Source: Cloeon dipterum
Lineage: Eukaryota > Arthropoda > Insecta > Ephemeroptera > Baetidae
Assembly (NCBI RefSeq): GCF_949628265.1
Contig: NC_088789.1
Span: 16,484,886-16,548,885 of the forward strand
Direction of reading: 5' to 3'
DNA: 64,000 bases
The notes under the pieces are model-generated. The model did no database searches and was not told the origin of the DNA. It worked only from the letters and a program-made list of their open reading frames with translations. Made by a program: the position numbers and the translations under genes. The first letter of the stretch is position 1. Every line of letters starts with the position of its first letter. Positions 43,317-64,000 of this stretch are shown piece by piece.

Positions 43317-46300
43317 ATGGACATGATGGATCCGCTGGAGACCGGGTGAGTGACCCCGAAATCTAGCCCGCGGCCTCTAATGGCCCTCCCTAAACGTGTC
43401 TCTCGGTCTGAGATCAGCGATAGACCCTTCTGCACGTTCGACTAATTTGTCCCTTAGGGTGTCTATCTATGTACATGCACTATTAGTGGGTGGACATCCC
43501 GTGGCGTGTGCCAAATTGGGCTTCACACTTCATAGAAATTTTATTTTTCTTTGGTTTGTCTGCCTTAAATGCATTTACATATATATCGACTCTGAAATGT
43601 GGTGCTATAGCCATGTTTGACAATGGGGGCTAAAAGAAACCTTACACGTGTTGAAATAAATTTTTTAAATACATAGTTGACTGTCTGCTTTAAGTTAAGA
43701 TCAATTATGATACACAATATTATGTGTTTTTTGTTAATAATTAAAAAATAGTAAATTTGGTTTAAAACGATAAAAATTGTATTTTTGTACCTTTTTGAAT
43801 TCCAAACTGATTTTATCAATTAAATTTTGATTCCCGTTTGAATGTTTCAGACAAGACCAGAAAGATGGTGAGTGTGAATCGCCAGAGGCGGCCGCGATGG
43901 TGGCCGCCGAGACTTGCTTAGTGGTGGACGGTGATCTGAACATAGTGTCAGAAGAGCAGGAGGAGGTGCCGGCGGCGGCCGTCATTCAGCGGCACCAGCC
44001 CGTCGTGGTGGCCGCCGGCACCAAGCGGCCGCGTCAGAATCGCAGAAATGTTATTCTGCAACAGGCGACCATGGAAAACGCCACCCTCGTAGAAACTGAC
44101 CCTTTCGAATCGGTTGGAGGTCCGTCGATTCCCCCTCTTTTCCTCTCTCTCTCATTTTCTCGAACACCCTAATTTGTTTTAGCTTTGGTGGATTCAGTTT
44201 GCTTTGGACTCGTCAGACGCGTCTGGCGTAATTTGCAAGTAGATGTTGAGTGAGCACTACTCAGGTGAACTCAGCACCTCAATGGCCAATTTTTTCTTAC
44301 TTGCCATTCCATATCTATTAAGACTATGTATCAATTGTTCTAGAATTCAATATTTTTTGTTGATGAAAATTTTTGGAAACAAAAAGTTGCATATAAGGTA
44401 TTTTTAATAACGTTTGTTTACAAGGTGCACATTTCACGGTCTCTTGAAGAATTGAAACTAAAAAAATAGTCGTTCGTCTATAATTCACAATCTTAGTAAA
44501 GATCTAATATCTGCAACTCCAAATGTTGTGTTTTTGAACCAGTTGGCCGTAGTGCTCACCAAAGTTTTCTGTTCTTTAAACAGTTTCGTTATCAGCAAGG
44601 CTTGTCTCAGAAAAAGGTAGCTGTTTTTGGGTTGTTTTGTAGGGAACGTTTGGTTGCGTTACTCCTTCAATGATGCAGGATTTGCTCTCTGATATTCCTC
44701 AACTTCAGAAGCAGGTCCAAAGCTCTTTGCACAAACCTCTTTTCTAACGAAAGCATGACTCTTGTTCTTGATTTCCCTATCGTTGCGTGTTTCCAATCTT
44801 TCTATTTTCGCAGACACGGGCAACACCGTCACCTACAGGGTGGTCCAGGTATCCGCTCCCGGGACAGGATCTGTGACTGATGAAATGGACGGCATTTCCC
44901 AAATAATCCACCCGACGACCAACTTCACCACTGGGGCGACAGCCTCAGGGGTGCAGGCTGTGCTCACTTCACCAATCAACGGCCAGTTTTATGTGATTGG
45001 CTCTCCTCAAGAAGTGTTCACAGGAACCAACACCAGAAACATTGCGCCAAGAAACCAAAGTGAAACTGTGAGAGGGACAACGGTAAGAAAATCGTTTGTA
45101 CTTACAAGTAATTCCAAGAAGTCGTGCTTGGAGGCGGAATAATTCCGACTAGCCCTCGGACTCCAGGAGATGCAAAGAAATGTGCATTGACTCACCCCCA
45201 GCAGGTTTCCACCTTTCCTGCCAGGAATCCTGAGACTTTCAGGCATTTCAATTATCGGCGTTTCATTTGAAAGACCTCGGTTGAAATTTTTAACTACCAA
45301 AACCGTCATAGTCGTATCGTGTAAAGTCATTTTATGTTAAAACTCTTTTTTCAGAGACGTGATGAAAGAAGACGAGCCACCCACAACGAGGTGGAAAGAA
45401 GAAGGAGAGACAAGATTAATAGCTGGATCATGAAACTTGGAAAAATTATCCCTGATTGCGGGAACGAAGGCGGAAAGCAAGGACAGGTTAATTTTGAGGG
45501 GCAGGTGACTAAAAGTTTAAGTTCTAGGAATGCTCTTCAGAAAATGGTTGGACTGCATTTTGGTTTTGTTTGGAATTACCAATATACTCAAACGCATGAA
45601 TATTTGTATTTAATAACTTACTACTAGTTTAGTTCATGAAGTTAGTTTAGGAAGTGCATGGTTATTAGTTTTTTGAATTCTCACAAGGAAAATCTTGTGA
45701 TTTGACGTTTTAGTTTTTGGTAAAATTATTAGTATTGCATAGCATCCAAAGAGTTCAGAGATATCACTAGGGGAAATTTTATCTTTTAGATTTTGCGAGC
45801 TATGAATTTCCAAATATTTAAAATCCTTACGATATTAAACACGGGAAATATTTTTAAATTAAATTGTGAATCCAGTCATTCAATCCCGATGATTTTCTAT
45901 TGGAACACTCATTAAAATGTATCGACCGATGGGTCAATTTTTTATAATTCCAGACAGTTCTAAGTTTATATACTTTTGCCGGAAAATTTTGTGATGGCTC
46001 ATCAAGTGGTTAAGATAATTTTTTTAAATTTCTGTGCTGACTGCCAGCTTATATTATTGTTTCATTGTTTTTTTTTACTAGGAAAAATAATATAAAATTA
46101 ACATAAATATTCCATGTAGGAATATTGAGCTAAGAATAAATTTTAAAGAAATGACAATTTTCTGAAAATCTAAAATATTGCTAAAATCGTTAAATCGAAA
46201 ATGTTCCACCACAGTATCAGGAAAAGCTACACGAATTCGATTGGTTCGCTAAAATCTAAAACATGTCAGTCAAAATGATTTACTTAAAACATCACCATAA

Positions 46301-46665
46301 ATATAAATTTATAAAGACTTAACATTACTCGTATCTTCTGTAGTAAGTAGAACATGTAGAATATCAAGCTCATTAAATAAGGAGGTAAATAATAACTCAA
46401 CCCTCTTTCACAGAGTAAGGGAGGCATCTTGGCCAAAGCCTGCGAATACATCACAGAATTGCGGACCCTTAATCAACGGATGGGCGAAAACATGAAGGAG
46501 AATGAGAGACTTGTGATGCAGTTGGAGGCGTTGCGGCAGCAGAACGACGAGCTGCGTCGGGAGAAGCTGGCCCTGCACACGCAACTGACCCAGAATGGAA
46601 TTGTGCCTGTCGTGGAAGCAGATGCCAGCGCTGAAATTGTAATTGATCAGGACAGCCTGACATAA
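43317..46665 (+). CDS. Usf: Upstream stimulatory factor (USF), bHLH-leucine zipper
   Basis: Nuclear transcription factor of the USF family, which dimerises and binds CACGTG E-boxes. Exons 43317-43345, 43851-44119, 44814-45082, 45355-45486 and 46414-46665 join in frame to 316 residues (human USF1 is 310). The start MDMMDPLETG follows a GC-rich leader. The USF-specific region reads NTVTYRVVQVSA with GQFYVIGSPQEVF (about 100-190). The basic region is RRATHNEVERRRRDKINSWI (about 195-215); it retains the His, Glu and Arg that contact the E-box. Helix 2 reads GGILAKACEYITELR, followed by a zipper with the LEALRQQNDELRREKLAL run. The stop TAA is at 46663-46665. An in-frame alternative donor at 45504 would add six residues in the loop. 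An AATAAA at 47225-47230 may be the polyadenylation signal. Confidence 0.95.
45487..46413 (+). other. USF intron 4 with a dispersed repeat
   Basis: AT-rich intron of about 930 nt splitting the bHLH loop from helix 2. Its middle (about 45920-46260) resembles the segment near 56485-57003 and is annotated separately. No other content is recognised. Confidence 0.6.
45920..46260 (+). repeat. Dispersed repeat, copy 1
   Basis: It shares ordered blocks with 56485-57003 in the same orientation. Near the start: an ACTTTTGCCGGAAAATTTTG block versus ACTTTTACCAGAAAATTTG, then TGGCTCATCAAGTGGTT versus TGGCTCATTAATGGTT. Near the end: TTGCTAAAATCGTTAAATCG versus ATCGCTAAAATCATCAAATCG, and ATCAGGAAAAGCT.CACGAATTC in both. 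It is non-coding and of unknown class. Confidence 0.65.
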
Positions 46666-48574: not shown

Positions 48575-51500
48575 ATGTCAACGAGTGAGGAGCAAGATGA
48601 GACGAGGGAGATTCTGGAGATTTTGTCCGAAGACAGCATTCTTTTACTTACGAAAAAACTAGCCAGCTCTTTGAACAGGGCAAGAAATGGTCAGGCTGGC
48701 AAAGTCACTCATCTCAAGATTTACGAAGGACTGTTGTCAAAACGAAGTAGCCCGGGTAAAAGATAAAACTGGTTCTTTTGCTGGTCTGTTCATACTATTA
48801 TTTGTGATTTTTCCAGATCCTGACGGTGATGAGATTTTGTCCCTATGCATAAAAAACGCAGATCACGACGCACAAACAACCAACCGACTGTTAAAACTGA
48901 TCGCACAACTCTCAAATGTTGAAAGAGGCAGGGAAATCATTCAGTTCCTGGCTCTCATGGGGAGTAAGAAGCAGAAGAACCCTGAGAACCAAATTGACGT
49001 TCCCAGAGCCAGGAACGTTGGCATATTTCATTGTCCAGCCGAAATGCTTGATGGCTCACGTTTTGCTGAACTGCCCCATCAGAAGGCTAAGGATTTTTAC
49101 CGCACAAGTTTCAGTTTTGATGCCGAACCTGGCACAAACCTTCCACAGTGCTCAAAGTTCTTTCAAAAAAACAATAAGTATGGTCATAAGCTGTCCAATC
49201 GCAAATCATTTTGATCAAAGTGTTGTCTTAAGCAGGGATTCCAAAAAGTCAAGGCAACAACAGCCAGAGCGCAAAGACCAAGGCTACAGCTCCAGTGAAG
49301 AATCTGAAATTGACTGGGTCGCAGTGTCACATATGGGTCCACCACCGCGGCACAGAACCTGGGAGCAACTCGGCCAGATCGCTGCCACCACAGAAAAGCC
49401 ACTGCTGACAGACACTGCTGTGATCAAGACGCACACAAATCAAATTAGCAGGACTGAGTTCATGACTCGCTTGGGATACATGCTGATTGGAGTCCAGTCT
49501 GATAGTTTTCTTTATTGCGAGGTACTGTGCATGATTATTTAACTTTTGAACTGCATTTAATTGTTAATTTTTAGGAGAGAAAGTCTTTCTATCTTGCCAA
49601 AGATGTGCAAGTTGTGGGAATCAGCCAGCAAGCAGTCGCGGAAATGGTCAAGCCAATGATTGCTTGCGGATCTAGTCATGTGATGCTTTCCAAATTTGTT
49701 GAGAACCGCCACGAGAGAAGCAGGATTTTACAGGTTTGACCATTCATGTACGCATTTATGATGAGTATTGCAATAATGAACATTATATATCTAGGCCATC
49801 CAAAAAGCTGTGGAAAAGTTGCTGCTTGTGCACAGAAAGTCTGTTCAAAATTTAATCGCCCACCACAGGGACAGAGTATTGGCTCTGGTGAGCGCTATGC
49901 ATTGGATTGGACCTCCAATAGTTGCTGTTTCTGCATTTTGCTGTCCTGCCACTGGCAAAAGACTGAAAGGGTTGACAGCTTTGGAGGAGTTGAGCAAAAT
50001 TTGCTCTGAAATCATTCCAGGCCGCATGGCCAGTGTGTTCTATTCCTTGCTCAAGGCTGCAGCTGAAGCCTATTTGAGGTAAGTTGGTCACCTATAGGCG
50101 CAATTGAGTGCTAAAATGCAATTTTCACAGAATACTCTGGGAGTGGATTTTTGAAGGAGAACTACCGGAAGGCAAAAAGGCAGAGTTCATGATCCAGCCA
50201 CAACCAGGCATGCTAAGCCGCCGTGACCGAGCTTTCTGGGCTGACTCGTTTGTCATTCTTGAAACTCGAGTGCCCAGCTTCATGAAAGGGCTAGAGGAAT
50301 CTGTCAAGGAGTGTGGAATAGCGATATCGTTCCTAAAATTGTGTCAGAAAAATGTAAGACATCCAATTTTGTAATTCTGCTTAGTGTGGGAAATTCAGAA
50401 GAACATCACATTTCTAAACTGAATTGAATTAATAAGTGGGGGGTCAATACAAGGGCTTTGATATATTACTGTCTAAAATTTTGTAACTTTTTGTTGAACA
50501 CCATTTTGATATTTTAGCATGTTGTCAGGGTTCACAGGGTTGTCTATATAACCAAGTTTAACGGAAAAATTGGCCGTTTTCCCAGAAAACCAGGGTAAAA
50601 TCTGGGAAGATAAGCCTCTTAGAGCTTAAACGTTTAGAAATTATTTGGGTACTAATGAAGCCATTCCAATGGTGTGCAGATTAAACCAATAAAGAGCCCA
50701 CAGACATTAATAAAATGGAAATTTAATTAAATCAATAGCGCAAGGAGAATACTAAATATATGCATTATCTTTCCAGCATCCACTTTTGAAACTGAAAAAC
50801 AGACCACCAGTTGTCTGCTGCTTGAATGATGCTGAGTTGGACCGTTTGAAAGCGCAATGCGTTATGTATGAGCAAGAGGCTGCAGAACTTTGTGGGCCTC
50901 CTGTGACGGCAGCAGAGCAGCTGGAAATCAATCAAGAGCAGCAACAAGCCTTCTTGGCCATGGTGACCAGGGTTCGAGAGGAAAGACTAATTGAAATCAG
51001 AGGTAAACTTAATTTATCGCCCATTTGAATGGCACTAATTGGCTGGTAATATCAGCTGCTTTGGAGAAAGAAAGAAAGCTGAAGGCTGAAAGGGCAAGAA
51101 AGTTGAAAGAGGAGCTGGCTAATCAGATTGAAGAGGTGAAAGCACGTAAAGCCGCCCAGCTGAAGAAGGAGCAGGAAGAGGAGGAGAAATTCGTGCAGGA
51201 GCTGAAGGAGTTGCAGGAAAAACAGCTTAAACTGCTGGAAGAGGAAAAGTAAGAGTGTGGAATTTAACACCGGCTCCAAATACTTATCTATTATTGTAGG
51301 GAGCGAATGCGGCGCCACTATGATATGAACAGCAAAGAGCCTGAGGATAAACTTGCCAATGCTGAAGCTGAAATCCAAAGTCTCAGAGAAGAACTCGATT
51401 TTTTGACTGGAAAATCCATAGTTGCAGAAGAAGATGAATGTGACGGCAGCAGTATCAGTCAACAGAGCATGGTGAATGACAACCTGCCAGCCAATGAGGA

Positions 51501-53527
51501 TGAAAACAAGAATCCTGTCGCTGCCGAGGGTCAAGATGACAACGCCAATCTTAGTCCTAGGAAAGTGCCGACCTCTTTGCCTATAAAATTGGACCGCAAC
51601 GAAGGGGATTTGTCCACAATAGACAATACTGCTGCGATTGAGGCTGCGAAGAACAAAGCCAAAGTGTTAAGTCACGAGTACAACCTTATCCAAAACTACG
51701 ACGAATGTGATTCAGATAGAGTAGCAAAAAAGCCATCAACGTTGCAAGATAATCAGCAGTTGAGTGAGATGTTCAAACTCAGAGCTGACGAGGCAGCTCG
51801 CAACAAGGCCCGCGTAATGAATCACGAGTTTTTCTCTGATTTCGATCAGCTAGACAATGCCAAGGAGCTTTTGGACAACAAAACTGCGGACGCGTCCCCA
51901 ATGGAAGAATTAGCAACGCCCGTGGAAATGTTCGCCTCCACAGACACCGAGAATTGCGAACCTCTGGAGACGCCAGACACGGAAACTCAGCCGTCCGCGA
52001 TGTCCATCAGCTCTGAGGAGAGCAAGTGCGGAACCCCGCTGGATATGCCTGTGAAACCGTTCCCAGCCTCAGCCAGCAGCTTTTCAGTGAGCAGCATCAT
52101 GTCGACGATTTCTGAGCCGCTGCGTTGGCAGTCGGTCACCAGCAAGGAAAGCGTCAACCTGTCCATCAAGGAGAACAGCTTTGACTGCAGCAACCACATC
52201 AAAAACAGCTTTTTGCAGCACACCGTGTCGGTTGTTCTGAACACGCAGGTGCAGCTGGCCAACCAGTACGTGCTGCACGTCTTCCTGCACGACCAGTCCA
52301 TTCTGAGCCACTTTAAGTCTCTCCGCAAGTACTTCCTCCTTCTCGACGGAGAGTTCGCCACTCGGCTCACGTCGCAGCTCTGCACCGAAATAGAGCATTT
52401 CCAGGACAGGCCGGGCAACCTGCTCAACTTCACGGCGATGAATTTGATTCTGCAGAATGCTCTTGTTGGCTCCGAAGATCCTAACAAAGAGCGGCTCTCG
52501 CTGAGTTTCCGCTCTATTCCAAACAAATTCAACGTGTCTGACTCAAACCTGCTGGAGTGCATTCAGCTGCAGTACGAAGTGAGTTGGCCCCTGAACAGCG
52601 TGCTCACCAGACACATCCTTCAGTACTACGACCTGCTGTTTACGTTCGTGCTGAGTCTGCGCAGGGTCATTTGGGTACTGGATCAAACCTTCCGCCACCT
52701 AAAGACCTGCGACTCCGGCGTGGTAAAAAAGATCTTGAACAACAGCCCGCAGCACAGGACGCTGTGTCAGCACCACTTTGAAATGAGCGCCTTTTTCCGC
52801 GCCTTCCACTCGTACATCCTGAACGTGGCCATAGTGCAGCAGTGGCCCAAGTGCGAGGAGGCCATCAAGAAGGTGACCAGCCTGGATGGACTGTATGAAG
52901 TGCACCACAAGATGTTCGTCCGAAGCGTCATCTACCGTTGTCTGCTGCGTAAGGAGGCCGTCAAAATCCAAGAGCTGCTCGGGGCCACAATCAGGCCTGT
53001 GCTGCGTTTCTACACTCTGGTCATCGCTCACGAATGGGAGTTGAAGGTAGGTTAAGCACAAATATTTAATAAATTTAGGAGTGAATTGAAAATTTTCGGA
53101 AGAACCAAATTATAAATAAAACTTTCCAGTTAGTTAGTTATTTCATTATTGAAATCGCATGGTAGCTTCCTTTGAATTTTTTAATAATTAGTTTTTGATG
53201 ATATACCTAATTTACTTGAATTCTTCGATTTGAATTTATTTTAAATTAAATTCAAATTAGTGATCTATTTAATTTTTATTTTTGTAGGATGATGTATATG
53301 AGCACCCGCAGTTTAAGAATCTGTCTCTCGCATACAAGAAGTACCACGAAAGGACCAATTTACTGGCGAAAAATCTGTCTAAATTAGCATCTAGAGGATA
53401 CCAGAGCGATCTGCAAGATCTGTGTGATTATCTCAGGATGAACGACTTTTACTCTGTGCTGACCGTGGAGCCCACTCAGCCTCATCAGTCCCTTGTTTCA
53501 TCTACTGCAAGCACACTTAGCAAGTAA
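48575..53527 (+). CDS. Grip163: Gamma-tubulin complex component 6 (GCP6, fly Grip163)
   Basis: Subunit of the gamma-tubulin ring complex, which nucleates microtubules at centrosomes. Exons: 48575-48755, 48817-49177, 49236-49521, 49575-49733, 49795-50078, 50131-50353, 50777-51002, 51056-51248, 51300-53046, 53288-53527; about 1,299 residues (fly Grip163 about 1,350, human 1,819). The N-terminal GRIP region spans about 280-500. A charged coiled coil (KERKLKAERARKLKEELANQ) lies at about 575-660. An acidic linker with two NKA.V..HE repeats precedes the C-terminal gamma-tubulin-binding GRIP domain (about 900-1290), with the hallmark LQYEVSWPLNSVLTRHILQY. The 58-nt intron 49178-49235 is needed to restore frame. 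The terminal codons can be bypassed by a GTAAGG donor at 53524. I chose the ATG at 48575 as the first in frame; a GTG lies upstream. Confidence 0.92.
50354..50776 (+). other. GCP6 intron (423 nt)
   Basis: AT-rich intron; no exon or clear repeat was recognised. A short imperfect stem near 50570-50610 (TTTTCCCAGAAAACC then CTGGGAA) is visible. Confidence 0.55.
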
Positions 53528-53949: not shown

Positions 53950-56228
53950 CTAACTCAGCGCCAAGAAGTGCATGAAGTCTTTTTTGTTCTGAATCGGCGT
54001 TCTAGTTGGCCGGCCCAGATTCTTCCTGCTTCCAGGTGACACTTTGATCTCAAGCGCTATTGGTCCCTTGGTTGAGTGCATCCATTCCACTCCCGCTTTA
54101 ATTTCCTCAAGCGTTGTTGCGGATCGGGCCTGGAAATAAGCATTTTGATTTAAAACATCAATTTTTCTTATAGTTTTAACTTGATACCTCTTTATAGCCG
54201 CAAGCCAAAGCAATTTTCACGAGCTGGAATTTGTTCTCGTCGAGTGCTGCTGATGGCTGGCCCCCGACTGAGTCGTGGGTTCCATTGTTGATGATAATGT
54301 GTTTGAAATTCTGCGGCTCTGTTTGTCCAATGACTGCAAGCGCTCCCATGTGCATGATCACGCTCCCGTCACCGTCGATGCAAAATATCTGGAGAATTTA
54401 GAGCAAATTGTTGTTCACTTATGACGAAATTTCACGGGTTGGCGGATAAAATTGGCATGAGAAGTCAAGAAAATTCATCGAAATTAATAGCAGTCTCTAT
54501 TCATAGATTGCGTCACCAGATAATTTCGTCTAGGATTTTCTGGATAATTTTGAAAAACTTTTAGATCTCTGTATTTAATCTCCCTGTTAAGTGATTTATA
54601 AAATAAGGTATGTTTTATATGGTTTCCTCTCGCCAAGCCCGATCGAACTAACACCAAATTTGATGTTCTCGGTCAAAGTCTAAATGATTTTTTTTTCTAA
54701 GTAACATTTTAGAAATAATGGGCTCATGCCAGTTTTGAAATTTTTTAAATGTTGTCCCATGACTTGCGTGAAAATTTCAGTCTGTTTCTATTTTGTTATC
54801 AAGGAAATAAGCTTAAAAATTCGAACCACGAATTTTTCGTGCTTTGCAAATTTAGTTGACTCCAAATCTCGGGTTCTAACCATCAGATAGCAAACGCTGC
54901 ACATCGTAGGACTTGTCTCTGATTTCAGAAGTAAATTTCCTCGGGTATGCTTGACCCTCGTGCTAATTTTGTTCCCCGACTCGTGGCATTTGTCTCAAAA
55001 AATTGATTTAGACTGGTACCTGTCTCTTTGGTCTTTGAATCGCAATGCCCAGCGCAATGCTGGACGCGTGTCCCATCGAGCCCACCGTCAGGAAGTCGCG
55101 CTCGTGACCCTGACTGACTGACTTCCTGTACTCAAAAAGCTCCCTGGACAACATGCCGGTGGTGGAGACGACGACGTCGCGGTCCTTGAGGTTGGCCACG
55201 ACCAGCTTCACAGCGTCCTCTCTCTTTAGAGGACACCTAGCGATTACATTGATTGGTTTTGTCACAAAGACTGCTGAAATTATAATTTATACTTGGCAGG
55301 CGGGGGTGGCAGCACGTGGGGCAAGAAGGTCTGCCTCTTGACAAGCAGGCAGTAGGCGCTGTTATTGTGCTGCATGTGCTTCTTGGCCGTGTACAACGCA
55401 TCCCTGGCGCCCTCGAAGTAGTCCGGCAGAGACTGGAAGGGGATTCCCAGTGCAGCTGAATTTTTACTGATTAGATTTGGGTGATTTACTCTGTCCGAAA
55501 TTGGGATTCGGGAACTGTAAACTTATCCAAAAACCAGACTGGAATTTGTCCGAAAATGTATTAAGTTCAGGTAAACTCCGAAATTTTAAATTTTAGGTGT
55601 GTAGTGTAAACTATCATAGGACAAACTCCGATTCAGAATAATTCTAGGCATACGGACAATTTCCAAAACCATGTTTCAGATATAGTCCACGGTGGTCCCA
55701 TTAGATTGCGTTTGATTTAAAAATGTTTGCTGTGTTTACCCAGCAAGCCAGGGGTAACCTGGCCCTGCAGCAGGTGCTGTGGTTCATCCCTCTTGCCTGG
55801 CTCACCGCGCCAACCGACCAACAGCAACAGCGGCATGCTGTACACCTCCCGCGAGGTCATTGAAACAAGTGGATTCACTGTGTTCCCCAAGCCAGAATTT
55901 TGCAAATAAACAAGAGCGGATTTGTTGGTGGCCAGGTGGTATCCGGCCGCAATACTCACGGCATTGCCTTCGTTCGAGGCGATGATGTGGTTCGAAGCTG
56001 GCACGTTGCTCGTCACGAAAGCACAGAAATCTGCAAATGGGGATGCTTGACGTCAATTACCCTTCGGGAACTTCAGTTACCTTTGAGCAATGAGTCCGGC
56101 ACCCCGCAGAAAAAGTCGATTCCAATGTCTCGGACAGCCTGGTAGAACTCTCCAGGGTCGAGGAAGTCGCGGACAAGTTCTGTGAGGTGACCAGCCTCAG
56201 CATTTCTTTGCTGCTGTTCCTGGACTTG
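53950..56228 (-). CDS. Phosphonopyruvate decarboxylase (ThDP enzyme), 5' end unresolved
   Basis: Phosphonopyruvate decarboxylase converts 3-phosphonopyruvate to phosphonoacetaldehyde and CO2, pulling forward the PEP mutase step of phosphonate synthesis. Exons in transcript order: 56228-56081, 56030-55740, 55455-55293, 55236-55020, 54388-54188, 54129-53950; 399 codons including a final phase-correct TAG. The N-terminal pyrimidine-binding half has DFFCGVPDSLLKDFCAFV, then ASNEGNAVSIAAGYHLAT with the catalytic ThDP Glu, YLQNSGLGNTVNPL and LLVGWRGEPGKRDEPQH. The C-terminal half has VSTTGMLSRELFEYR, FLTVGSMGHASSIALGIA and the ThDP motif IDGDGSV...IINNGTHDSVGGQP. Bacterial enzymes have about 375-400 residues, so it is nearly complete; the initiating exon lies upstream of 56228 and was not found. 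Sulfopyruvate decarboxylase is the nearest alternative, but the linked, single-chain architecture and the motifs favour phosphonopyruvate. Confidence 0.85.
54389..55019 (-). other. Intron of the decarboxylase gene (631 nt)
   Basis: AT-rich intron between the SMGHASS exon and the ThDP-motif exon; no exon recognised. Confidence 0.6.
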
Positions 56229-57003: not shown

Positions 57004-57313
57004 AAACGTTGAATCTTAAGAGTTTCCTTGTAGGTACATAACAGATTTCAACTGTGCTCCCAGCTTTAAATTGGTTGAGAAAGTTGGTTTTCAAAATTCT
57101 GAATTGAAACTTAATAAAAAAAATCACTAATACTCGCTGGAGGGACGAGTTTAAAAAAGAACCTGCTCTCGAGAACGATCCCTTGGCGGCGTCACAGTTG
57201 TCAAAAGTCGCGAGTTTTTGACGCAACAGAAACCTGTCCGGGTAACCTAACGGAGAGAAAAAAGTTTTTTAACACCACCATATTTAACACGTATGTTTGC
57301 TTTTCTTACTCCT

Positions 57314-57496
57314 CTAACGAGTGAGAACATTTTGAGTCGGCTTTCCCTGCGGCTGCTTCAGATATAGTGAGAGTTGGGATCTGTCTAGCCCGAGAGCAGT
57401 CAAATCATAGATGATAACCCTTTGGCCCTGTGTCGTTATCACCTTGACTGGGGCAGCAAGACAATTGGTGGACTTGACATGAACTTGGGAACCACA
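57314..57496 (-). other. Orphan minus-strand open frame, 60 codons
   Basis: Between stops, the minus strand reads a protein-like segment that includes VKVITTQGQRVIIYDLTALG and, after LDRSQ, LSLYLKQPQGKP. Composition and hydrophobic pattern look more coding-like than the AT-rich surroundings, but there is no start codon in frame and no clear splice donor in the phase needed to join the decarboxylase. I do not recognise the family. It could be a stray exon, a gene remnant or chance. Confidence 0.25.
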
Positions 57497-57888: not shown

Positions 57889-60800
57889 TTACCGACGGGC
57901 GAAGTTAACAACATACTCTCTGGCCTTAACTTTGAAAGCTTCCTTGTCTTTTTGATACATATCTGCTGCTTCAATATTCAACGGATCCTCAAAGTTCAAC
58001 AAGTCCTGAAACAAGAAATAATTGAAAAATCGATTTATGTGCAGCGCAGTCTCCATGCAGCTTATCTTAAATTACAAAGTCATTAGAATAAAATCTGAAA
58101 ATTGTTCACTACTTCAATAAACCTTGGACAGTTGAAATAATAATTATAATAAAAATAGCCTTTCTTTGATTTGCATGTGAAGTAATTCAAATTGTCTCTC
58201 ACACAACACAATTTTTGTGGAGTGTTATTATAACAGTCCGCAGTAGGGTATTTCCGAAAGAGATCTTCAATGATCTACAAATTTTAAATTTTTGTTCGAG
58301 CACTATCCTGATTTTTAAGTATTTTTTAGGGTAATACACAGGTGTCAAAATAAGTAAATTTGTCAGTAAAATGTAAAAAACGTTTTCTAGAAAATAGATA
58401 GGGAAAACCTGGTGAAACGGTCATCTGCGTTAAAATTATTTTTGTATTATAATGATGCTAGGAACATCAAATTTTGTGCCAAAAGATGCCCACTTAGACA
58501 GCCTTCAACTTCAAAATTTTAACCGTTTTTTTAGCATCAGGTCAGACATGACCATCAAAATAGGAAAGAAATTGAACCCATTGTCGTTAAGGTTGTCCTT
58601 GAGCAATCGATTTCATGAAATTCCCATTTAAGCCACTTAACCGACGCCTGACGGGCATAGTATTTGTTCAATTAGCAAGATCTGCACACTGTTGTAATGG
58701 CAAAGTCAAAATCTTTCAGAATATGTGCAGTTTGACCCTTAGGAAGTCGTCATGGAGCTCAGGAAATGCCCTGATATGCGAGCAATCTCATTCCAGAGCA
58801 CCATGTAGACACATAGAGGGTCCAATTGAGGTGAATATTAACATGAAAGCTTTTGTCTAGGCCGTTGACATTGAAAATCAAACCAATACAGATCCTAACA
58901 GGAGTTAGTTAAGTGGCTACACATGTGCATTGAATTAAATCGATCGCTCAAAGGCTACCTTGACGCCAGGGCTCAATTCACCTAAGCCAGTCAGTTTTTA
59001 TAAAACTTGAGGATGTTTTTTAATGACTTACTGTAAAGAGAGAGTTCAGGCCCCACACAACGTCTTTTAATCTGCGAGTGGGTGCCCAGCCAAGTCCGTC
59101 TATAGAACTCTGTCGAAGCAAACTCAAACAAATTTCTCCATCAACACTAATATTGGGATGCCACAACTTGGTTAAACATCTGACTTTTGGCGGCTGAAAA
59201 TTCGAGACGCACTGTGAGAAGGCACCGAAATTGGCTTCTTTACTTACTGCCATGTTGTATTCCTCTGGAACATATATGTGGAATTTGAAGTGACCCTCAT
59301 ACCAGTAGCCCTCGTCTGGGGTCACTGTCAGGAAAAATTCATGCAGTTTATGAGTATCTTCAAAGAAAGTACTGCACGTGGGTGGCAGCTCCGCTTCCAT
59401 TTCTTGGACCTGAGAAAGATAAATTCTAATTAATATCAACATTCTGTAAAAAAATTAAAATGAATTAGCGATATAGTAAGGGTTCGACTTTACACTGAGC
59501 GAGAATAGCGACATATTTCTTTGCGGTTCATAATTTTACAAAACTGTTATTGAGCCATAATCAGTCAAAGCAACAAATTTCTGTCCAGGGGTCAATGGAT
59601 TTTGATGAAATTTTTTTGCGTTAATTTTGCCCTAATTGACCGACAAAACAGTTGAGAAAACTCCGACTTTCCAATTTTTGCGGGTTTTGCGGGCGTTCAA
59701 ATGTCAAAATCTGGGAATTTAGAGTACTTCATAACTTTGCTCAGGGTAGTCCTAGAACAAAAATTAAAAAAACTCGTAAACTCGTCTCAACAAGGCAAAC
59801 AACTTTTACATTAACTTAATTTTTGTTAATAGGACCACCACAACCCGAGATTCGGGTGCACAAAGTTTTTTTTTTAATCGAGGCGGATGCAATAGAATGC
59901 TTGATGAGCACCAAATCTCGAATTGTGCACTAAAAATCTCGACGCAAATTATAAAATAAATAAACAGCACACCACTCAAATTGTCCTGACATCCCTTTCG
60001 GGATTAAAGGGTGCAATCCCATTCAACCCCTACTACACACCCCATCCCAAGCGCGCTTTTTTTTTGTAATCATTTTTGAGCGGAAAAGTGTAATTTAATC
60101 ACTTCCGAGAGTGTAGAATTCGAGATTTGGTGCTCATCAAGCATTTTATTGCATCGGTCTCGATAAAAAAAAAACTTTGTGCACTCAGGTTGTGGTGGTC
60201 CTATTTACAAAAATTAAGAACCGTTTGACTCGATTTAAAGTGAACTAAGTAACAGAATTGGTTTGAAGACAATTACTCGTCAACGTCATGCTAAGGTGTT
60301 GAAACGGACGAAAAATTCTAAATTTCACGTTATTTGGGGGGTTTAAAGGGGGTTGGGGGTTGGTGGGTCTCATACCCCTTTAGTGCACTTAGGAGCGTCG
60401 AGAGGAGTCTAACTGTATGCGGTTTTTGAAATTCGGATGACTAGAAGTCGAGATTTGGCCAATCATCGTTTTTTACCAACCTCGAAAAACAAGGATTTTT
60501 GAAGTTTTCATTTTTAATTAAAAAAAAAAAAAAATAGGAAAAATCGCCATTCCAAATTTTAACGTTATTAGCTTAATTTTTTGTGCTCTACAAAATGGCT
60601 ATGAAAAAAATAAAAAAATCAATACATTCATTTTCAAATTTGAGTTTAAAATCAAAAAAATTAATTTTTATGATCTTGACCTTTGACTTAACACTTTGAG
60701 GTCAATATAAAAGTTGTTTGCCTTGTTGAGACGTGTTTACGGGTTTTTTAATTTTTGTTCTAGGACTACCCTGAGCAAAGTTATGAAGTACTCAAAATTC

Positions 60801-62440: not shown

Positions 62441-63238
62441 TTATTTGTGTCCAAAGTGGTGCCTTCTTCTCCTCGCAGCGGCGCTCTCTTCCGCTGAAGG
62501 CGCCGATCTCCCCAATATCCCACAAGCAACAGAGGTTGACTCTTTTTTGCTCATATCGTGGAACGCGATTCCGCGGGCTAAAACGCTTCGATGTCCGCTG
62601 AAGGCCAGCTTTGGGCCCAGAGTCATCTCCACCAATAGCTTTCCTTCGTCATCCACCTGGAAGGAACCCAGGTAGCCGGCGGGTATTTCAGGGCTCGGTA
62701 TCGAATTGGCCGGCTGTAAATTTCAAAATGGGAAAATTTCATTCAAAGCAACTCAGCTTGACTTTTGCTGGTTCCAGAAATGTTTGCTTTTTGAAAATCA
62801 GACCATTTTTTAAAAAATATGGTTTTAATAAAAACTTTAAATTTTTCCAAAAAATCCTTTAAAAAATTTAAATCATGCCATTGCCCGACTCTTGGCCTCA
62901 TTTTTAGGGCTTATATAACAAGTGCAAAATTCTTACCATTAACATATAGAACAAATAAGCCAGATTGAAATATGGAATTTAATAATGATTATTGAATTTT
63001 AGACGTGACTATATGTTACCTGGTCGGGCTTGAAGACAGGACCCAGCTTCCTGCAATCGCCATTTTCGTGTACCGAGAGGCCAAGGTTGAGCCCAGAAGG
63101 GAGTCCGTGCAGCTCAGCGCGCAGTTGCATCTTCGCGCCGCCGGCATCTTCCTTGACGATGATTTCGCCGTGCAATTTGTCTTCTAGGGATCTTAGCACC
63201 GCCACGGCTTTTTTGCCTACCGCCGATTCCGCGTCCGC
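62441..63238 (-). CDS. Cu/Zn superoxide dismutase-like protein, ligand-poor, 5' incomplete
   Basis: Two exons are clear: 63238-63020 and 62713-62441, both phase 0, ending in TAA after a basic tail (ARRRRHHFGHK). The fold is recognisable: KKAVAVLRS, then LHGEIIV, a GLSVHENGDC loop, LGPVFKPD, FSGHRSVLARGIAFHD and VACGILG. Against canonical SOD1, the first Cu His (H46) is Ser, the bridging His63 is Val, the Zn region has no His/Asp in the expected places, and the Arg before the final Cys is replaced. Only H48, H120 and the disulfide Cys pair appear kept. It is therefore probably not an active dismutase; insect SOD-related (Rsod-type) proteins are a plausible relative. The first exon is unresolved; one candidate is the ATG near 63432 (-) below a TATA box. 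Confidence 0.75.
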
Positions 63239-64000
63239 CTGAACAATTTTTCACAGAACCACGTGTATAATTAACTTTGGCATTGGTCGAGTGCAAATAA
63301 GAAAATTGAGCGCGCACGTTCCTCTTTAATTTTTTGTCGGTGCTGGACGAACGAGCGTCTTGTTGTCTGTCAAGGAAAAACGACTTTGTCTCGATAAAAG
63401 CGAGATGATGCTACAGCATGATGTCATCTCGCAGCTTATTCTCTTTTATATTGGAACATCTTTGCCGCCGCTGAGAAAGAATACCCTGCTCATGGCCACA
63501 GCCTCAAACGAGCAAATAAATTTCCTGATGGCAGCATCGGTGTGTGTGTGCATTAATGCTTAATGATGTCACGCTTAAAATTGGTTATTAAATAATTCCT
63601 GCAAATCCAATATATTCAACGCTTTTAACTTTAGTTAAGTGCGTGCATCACGAATTAACGATTATTGTTCCTAATACGCCAGATAGGAATTTTAAACATT
63701 TTTTTATGAAAATGAAGAAAATTTTATGTGGAAGGTTTGGGCTTTAATTAAAAAAAAAATGGGGACCAATGTAGAATAATGTAGATTTTTTTTAGTGTTT
63801 TTACCCATTTGGGTATTCGCGGGTTTCTTGCCCATTTTTCAAAATTCGGGTTGTATTCTTTTTAACATGATTTTATACGTTTAAAAAAAGAGATTTAGTC
63901 AATTAGTTAGTGTACCAGGTATTTTTTTTCGTTTTCAATAAATAAAATTTATAATTGCGGATTTGTTTTAAGAAAAATTTACCAATTTAGATAAAAAAAT
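63239..64000. other. Upstream flank of the SOD-like exons
   Basis: A minus-strand TATAAAAG at 63450-63443 is followed by an ATG near 63432 opening about 25 codons to a possible GTTCGT donor that would join exon 63238 in phase. That peptide (MTSCCSIISLLSRQSRF start) is only weakly signal-like. A short palindrome lies at 63401-63431. The last 400 bp are AT-rich with nothing recognised. Confidence 0.35.
63443..63450 (-). promoter_or_regulatory. Candidate TATA box for the SOD-like gene
   Basis: TATAAAAG on the minus strand, about 205 nt upstream of the first confirmed exon. Supported by motif only. Confidence 0.35.

Follow-up and report, generated by a model that had tools for sequence, protein, structure and literature searches.

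The window, by which we mean the whole stretch of DNA that was analysed (C4:16484886-16548885, 64,000 nt), contains a spliced Cloeon dipterum gene of the phosphonopyruvate decarboxylase (Ppd) family, lying between two host genes. The features are listed below by their positions in the window.

57310..57330, minus strand: candidate first coding exon of Ppd (MFSLVRG), weak, with a loose donor score and 5 of 8 consensus bases
56081..56228, minus strand: Ppd exon 2, the first one found; acceptor TTAG, donor AAAG/GTAACT; encodes QVQEQQQ...VPDSLLK
55740..56030, minus strand: Ppd exon 3, with the EGNAVSIAAGYHLA motif; matches TIGR03297 positions 11-112
55293..55455, minus strand: Ppd exon 4, from the splice model
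55020..55236, minus strand: Ppd exon 5, with VGSMGHASSIALG; matches TIGR03297 positions 170-242; preceded by a 56-nt intron
54188..54388, minus strand: Ppd exon 6, with the GDGS...NNGTHDSVGGQ cofactor motif and a PF02775 match; matches TIGR03297 positions 239-311
53950..54129, minus strand: Ppd exon 7, stop codon included; matches TIGR03297 positions 300-360
51268..53527, plus strand: adjoining host gene, gamma-tubulin complex component (PF04130, 107.4 bits)
59020..59454, minus strand: adjoining host gene, ubiquitin-conjugating enzyme exon (PF00179, 68.4 bits)

Joined, the six Ppd exons give 1200 nt including the stop codon and encode 399 residues without an internal stop. The five introns measure 50, 284, 56, 631 and 58 nt, and all five have GT...AG ends. 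A sequence-only reading of the window had proposed six exons, joined by GT-AG introns, that encode a nearly complete enzyme; its exons and introns stand, the 56-nt intron included, but the gene model is incomplete, the start exon being missing. The motifs it had named are all present, namely EGNAVSIAAGYHLA, VGSMGHASSIALG, and GDG with NN 25 residues further on. In the spliced protein GDG is at residue 279, NN at 307 and EGNAVS at 70, and we take the Glu of EGNAVS, in the N-terminal domain, to be a catalytic-site residue.

The frame has no Met before the conserved part begins, which means that one or more upstream exons are missing. The MFSLVRG candidate would give an intron of 1081 nt, and one other start-exon candidate was found at the loose donor score; at a stricter donor score the upstream region yielded none. 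The alignment with prokaryotic relatives starts at about query residue 17, which indicates that the missing part is the very N-terminus. Of the two neighbouring genes, both eukaryotic, the first matches the C-terminal domain of the gamma-tubulin complex.

Elsewhere in the window, two exon-like frames on the plus strand (45325-46665) encode a bHLH leucine-zipper factor with a Pfam HLH match that looks like USF, and a minus-strand frame (62999-63250) resembles copper/zinc superoxide dismutase, scoring 24.9 against a Pfam cut-off of 28.9. In the assembly, 5 of 25 scored candidate loci for the 7tm_6 receptor family exceeded the cut-off, and to our knowledge this family is confined to insects, so the matches point to an insect host. 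The 14 control genomes, all prokaryotic, were silent, which carries little weight. The assembly comprises 190.1 Mb in 10 contigs, five of them chromosome-sized (43.2, 37.5, 37.1, 36.4 and 33.2 Mb) and five below 1 Mb, and the karyotype of Cloeon dipterum is reported as 2n = 10 (PMC6446309), which agrees with five chromosomes, a number shared by other insects. None of the contigs C1 to C10 has more than four TTAGG words in its opening 1200 bases, no telomere array was seen there, and several contigs begin in AT-rich or satellite-like repeats.

The spliced Ppd protein scores 458.5 bits against TIGR03297 (cut-off 312.5, E = 1.5e-137) and covers model positions 1-360 of 360, which excludes a chance match and bears out the enzyme identity first proposed for the locus. 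A genome-wide search with TIGR03297 gave four exon matches, every one of them within Ppd, making it the single locus among those scored. Of the 55 columns invariant in 28 prokaryotic Ppd rows (a set that leaves out two partial rows, four second-type rows and two ComDE rows), 54 are kept in the insect protein, the exception being Ser for Thr. Two other TPP_enzyme_C loci (C1:34799976-34800476 and C2:9662357-9662524) were considered as second Ppd copies and rejected; their peptides look to us like ordinary animal ILVBL and HACL1, and for the first of them Pfam gave nothing beyond TPP_enzyme_C.

The cofactor motif is common to the insect protein and to AepY of bacteria and archaea (TIGR03297, for example the Segatella copri aepY beside aepX). 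The insect protein shares 51% identity with the plasmid-borne Segatella copy, and with other loci as much as 53%. Unlike AepY, the insect Ppd has at least six exons, GT-AG introns and an N-terminal extension, and its gene is unlinked to that of the PEP mutase.

A PEP mutase had been predicted to lie elsewhere in the genome, and a search of the assembly with PF13714 identified one such gene on the chromosome that carries Ppd, about 6 Mb from it. The companion search for an AEP (2-aminoethylphosphonate) transaminase, with TIGR03301, gave five exon matches on C2, and these led to a gene above the family cut-offs.

C4:22523452-22525682: PEP mutase gene, four exons, with EDKLFPKTNS; TIGR02320
C2:8962640-8958299: AEP transaminase gene, six exons, complete protein, over three AEP-transaminase cut-offs

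The PEP mutase scores 396 bits against TIGR02320 (cut-off 319.55) and 228.8 against the phosphonopyruvate hydrolase model (cut-off 374.4). In the PDB it matches 1m1b best (485.3 bits), and the next enzyme of a different kind is 5unc (252.7). It is identical to 1m1b at all 18 compared positions, which were chosen from active-site work. EDKLFPKTNS is the insect form of EDKXXXXXNS, a motif described as specific for PEP mutase and as setting the mutase apart from its relatives (PMC6697681). The N-terminus is glycine-rich, and no start exon was found among the reading frames inspected. Pfam gave an arginase-family match near the gene; a syntaxin-like peptide in the same neighbourhood had no Pfam match and was discounted.

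The AEP transaminase scores 438.6 against NF010006 (cut-off 296), 418.1 against TIGR02326 (400.8) and 413.4 against TIGR03301 (360.8). Near it is a marginal Hop2 match (23.4 bits, cut-off 22.8). A COX1-like fragment in which TGA is read as Trp (C2:8963136-8963273) lies about 0.5 kb upstream and is probably a nuclear copy of mitochondrial DNA. No other COX1 match was listed for the assembly, which therefore seems to lack a mitochondrial contig. The three enzyme genes, with their splice models, the families to which they belong and the residues they conserve, are directly visible in the assembly; all are spliced and lie, unlinked, on chromosome-scale contigs.

The Ppd gene could have come from a bacterial contaminant or symbiont, or from a recent transfer into one lineage. 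The sequence collections searched held no eukaryotic Ppd relative, and in a 37-row tree the query fell within a 31-row Ppd group (100/99), among prokaryotic sequences, where its placement is unsettled, its branch is long (0.94) and it is the only animal row. We nevertheless consider such an origin unlikely. Spliceosomal introns interrupt Ppd, the PEP mutase and the AEP transaminase alike, the neighbours of Ppd are eukaryotic, and the arginase-family and Hop2 matches lie near the partners. Ppd and the adjoining gamma-tubulin-complex exon have the same third-position GC (0.67), and the PEP mutase pairs with 1m1b in a tree of its own (99/100, see below). A coral Ppd has been reported with six introns and grouped with the Bacteroides fragilis enzyme, the same type as the insect's, alongside the other two enzymes (PMC3640398). 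That comparison is by description, not sequence, and sets the insect gene beside an intron-bearing animal gene in a cnidarian host. The introns, the eukaryotic neighbours and the partners in the same chromosome-scale assembly thus uphold the earlier view of Ppd as a host gene rather than contamination. A recent transfer of Ppd alone may still have taken place.

Over 288 residues, the insect PEP mutase and 1m1b share 72.9% identity. We take the PDB entries 1m1b and 1pym to be the PEP mutase of the blue mussel, from which the insect enzyme differs by its glycine-rich N-terminus. In a 31-row tree the insect enzyme and 1m1b form one branch (99/100) against 29 prokaryotic sequences. Prokaryotic sequences of the same type show 59-66% identity, and the best plasmid record 66.7%. 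The 73% identity to 1m1b and the 99/100 pairing suggest that the insect PEP mutase is an inherited animal gene.

In one bacterial class, 24 of 369 genomes had a PEP mutase match at E <= 1e-60, and 20 of these became loci, with flanks of about 1.5 kb, so that most Ppd matches in them are partial. A Ppd-like gene stands beside the insect-type PEP mutase in 18 of the 20 and is 30-38% identical to the insect Ppd. All four plasmid loci with an insect-type PEP mutase (61-66%) likewise carry a Ppd of 33-35% identity. Thirty loci have a closer Ppd (38-53%); 24 of them show a PEP mutase match of 31-38%, in seven cases a short one of 83-113 residues, and the remaining six showed no match. No sampled prokaryotic locus paired the insect's type of PEP mutase with the insect's type of Ppd. 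Among the best 15 of 412 matching plasmid records, the nearest relatives of the AEP transaminase are PhnW (Bacteroides finegoldii 48.5%, Azospirillum 47.8%), and transaminases adjoining Ppd genes are 30-40% identical to the insect enzyme (9 + 3 loci).

The apparent mixed ancestry of the three enzymes is the least expected result. Since the insect mixes types of PEP mutase and Ppd that are kept apart in the sampled prokaryotes, the animal AEP pathway could be a chimera of at least two prokaryotic-type pathways that arose early in animal evolution and was then inherited into insects; we regard the case for and against this as evenly balanced. Its parts would be a mussel/Burkholderia-type PEP mutase, a Bacteroides-type decarboxylase and a PhnW-type transaminase, which in bacteria works in breakdown. 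Since the coral Ppd, too, has reportedly been placed with that of Bacteroides fragilis (PMC3640398), this mix of enzyme types may extend across animals.

The resemblance of the transaminase to PhnW, which stands beside phnX in all three plasmid loci examined, also bears on the possibility that these enzymes break down or detoxify environmental phosphonates. There is a precedent in bdelloid rotifers, for which the use of AEP and phosphonopyruvate via transaminase or Ppd, and then phosphonoacetaldehyde hydrolase, has been proposed (PMC3499245). The transaminase reaction is reversible, and a PhnW-like enzyme is therefore compatible with a biosynthetic role. The insect PEP mutase keeps the residues of a true mutase, and a search of the genome for phosphonoacetaldehyde hydrolase (TIGR01422), with exons read singly, gave no match, under a weak control in which none of the 14 control genomes exceeded the cut-off. 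The lack of a hydrolase match would favour biosynthesis, and we think a breakdown role very unlikely.

It is also highly improbable that the gene encodes a sulfopyruvate or other 2-oxo-acid decarboxylase that merely resembles Ppd. These enzymes belong to the same superfamily, and the protein does match the ComDE models for sulfopyruvate decarboxylase (beta, TIGR03846, 120.7 bits; alpha, TIGR03845, 89.5) as well as acetolactate synthase models. Neither ComDE score reaches its cut-off (221.5 for beta, 147.95 for alpha), and both are far beneath the TIGR03297 score. In the 37-row tree ComDE falls outside all Ppd rows at 100/100, although the outgroup consists of only two concatenated ComDE rows and the program warned of long branches meeting there and of odd composition in six rows. 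A tree had been proposed as a check on the enzyme's identity, and in it the query groups with Ppd and apart from the sulfopyruvate decarboxylases. The sequence-only reading had left the choice between a phosphonate and a related 2-oxo acid undecided; the sulfopyruvate scores below cut-off, the separation from ComDE and the PEP mutase and AEP transaminase in the same genome together favour the phosphonate. Least credible is a decaying, unexpressed relic, for although the first exons of Ppd and the PEP mutase were not found, the six Ppd exons form an open frame of 1200 nt, have consensus GT...AG ends and retain 54 of the 55 invariant positions, and the PEP mutase and AEP transaminase genes are likewise open.

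We conclude that the gene very probably encodes Ppd and so would supply the second and committing step of AEP biosynthesis in Cloeon dipterum. The chemistry and direction of the reactions are inferred from the known pathway. PEP mutase would convert phosphoenolpyruvate to phosphonopyruvate, with an unfavourable equilibrium. With thiamine diphosphate and a divalent metal, Ppd would then convert phosphonopyruvate to phosphonoacetaldehyde, and the irreversible loss of CO2 in this step would pull the pathway forward. The AEP transaminase would form AEP from phosphonoacetaldehyde. On this gene content, Cloeon dipterum can probably make AEP on its own. Because the N-terminus of Ppd is missing, its location, mitochondrial or cytosolic, is a guess.

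The AEP would then probably be joined to glycans or lipids, the acceptor molecule being guessed. The sequence-only reading had named an AEP lipid as its example, but the precedents we found among related animals have AEP on glycans. A search of the genome for a PntC-like AEP-cytidylyltransferase, with one bacterial domain as query and without a positive control, found none. We know of no slime organ in Cloeon dipterum, unlike in velvet worms. Velvet worms, panarthropods like Cloeon dipterum, likewise have all three enzymes; AEP is reported on the glycans of their slime proteins, and transcripts of the three have been reported from slime glands as well as from further tissues (PMC10540779). In the locust, AEP has been found on the N-glycans of apolipophorin III (Hard 1993, cited in PMC6994554). 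The locust offers an insect AEP product that needs such a pathway, known as a compound, whereas Cloeon dipterum is known from its genes alone. As AEP is on glycans in both the locust and velvet worms, the likeliest form in Cloeon dipterum is, solely by analogy, also glycan-linked.

AEP in insects and velvet worms had thus already been reported, and the Ppd gene described here is a further case. A search of the open-licence literature, main texts only, turned up no publication that describes a Ppd gene from an arthropod genome, which is weak evidence of novelty. The genes lend support to the suggestion, made in the velvet worm report, that phosphonate production is an old panarthropod trait (PMC10540779), and the mixed ancestry of the three enzymes, if it holds, would bear on how animals gained carbon-phosphorus bond synthesis. 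According to a review, it is not known by what route glycans receive their AEP (PMC6994554). With a complete gene set on insect chromosomes, in a species already established as a laboratory model (PMC6446309), the AEP-to-glycan question would become a gene-knockout problem, and an old observation of AEP in insects would be made genetically testable.
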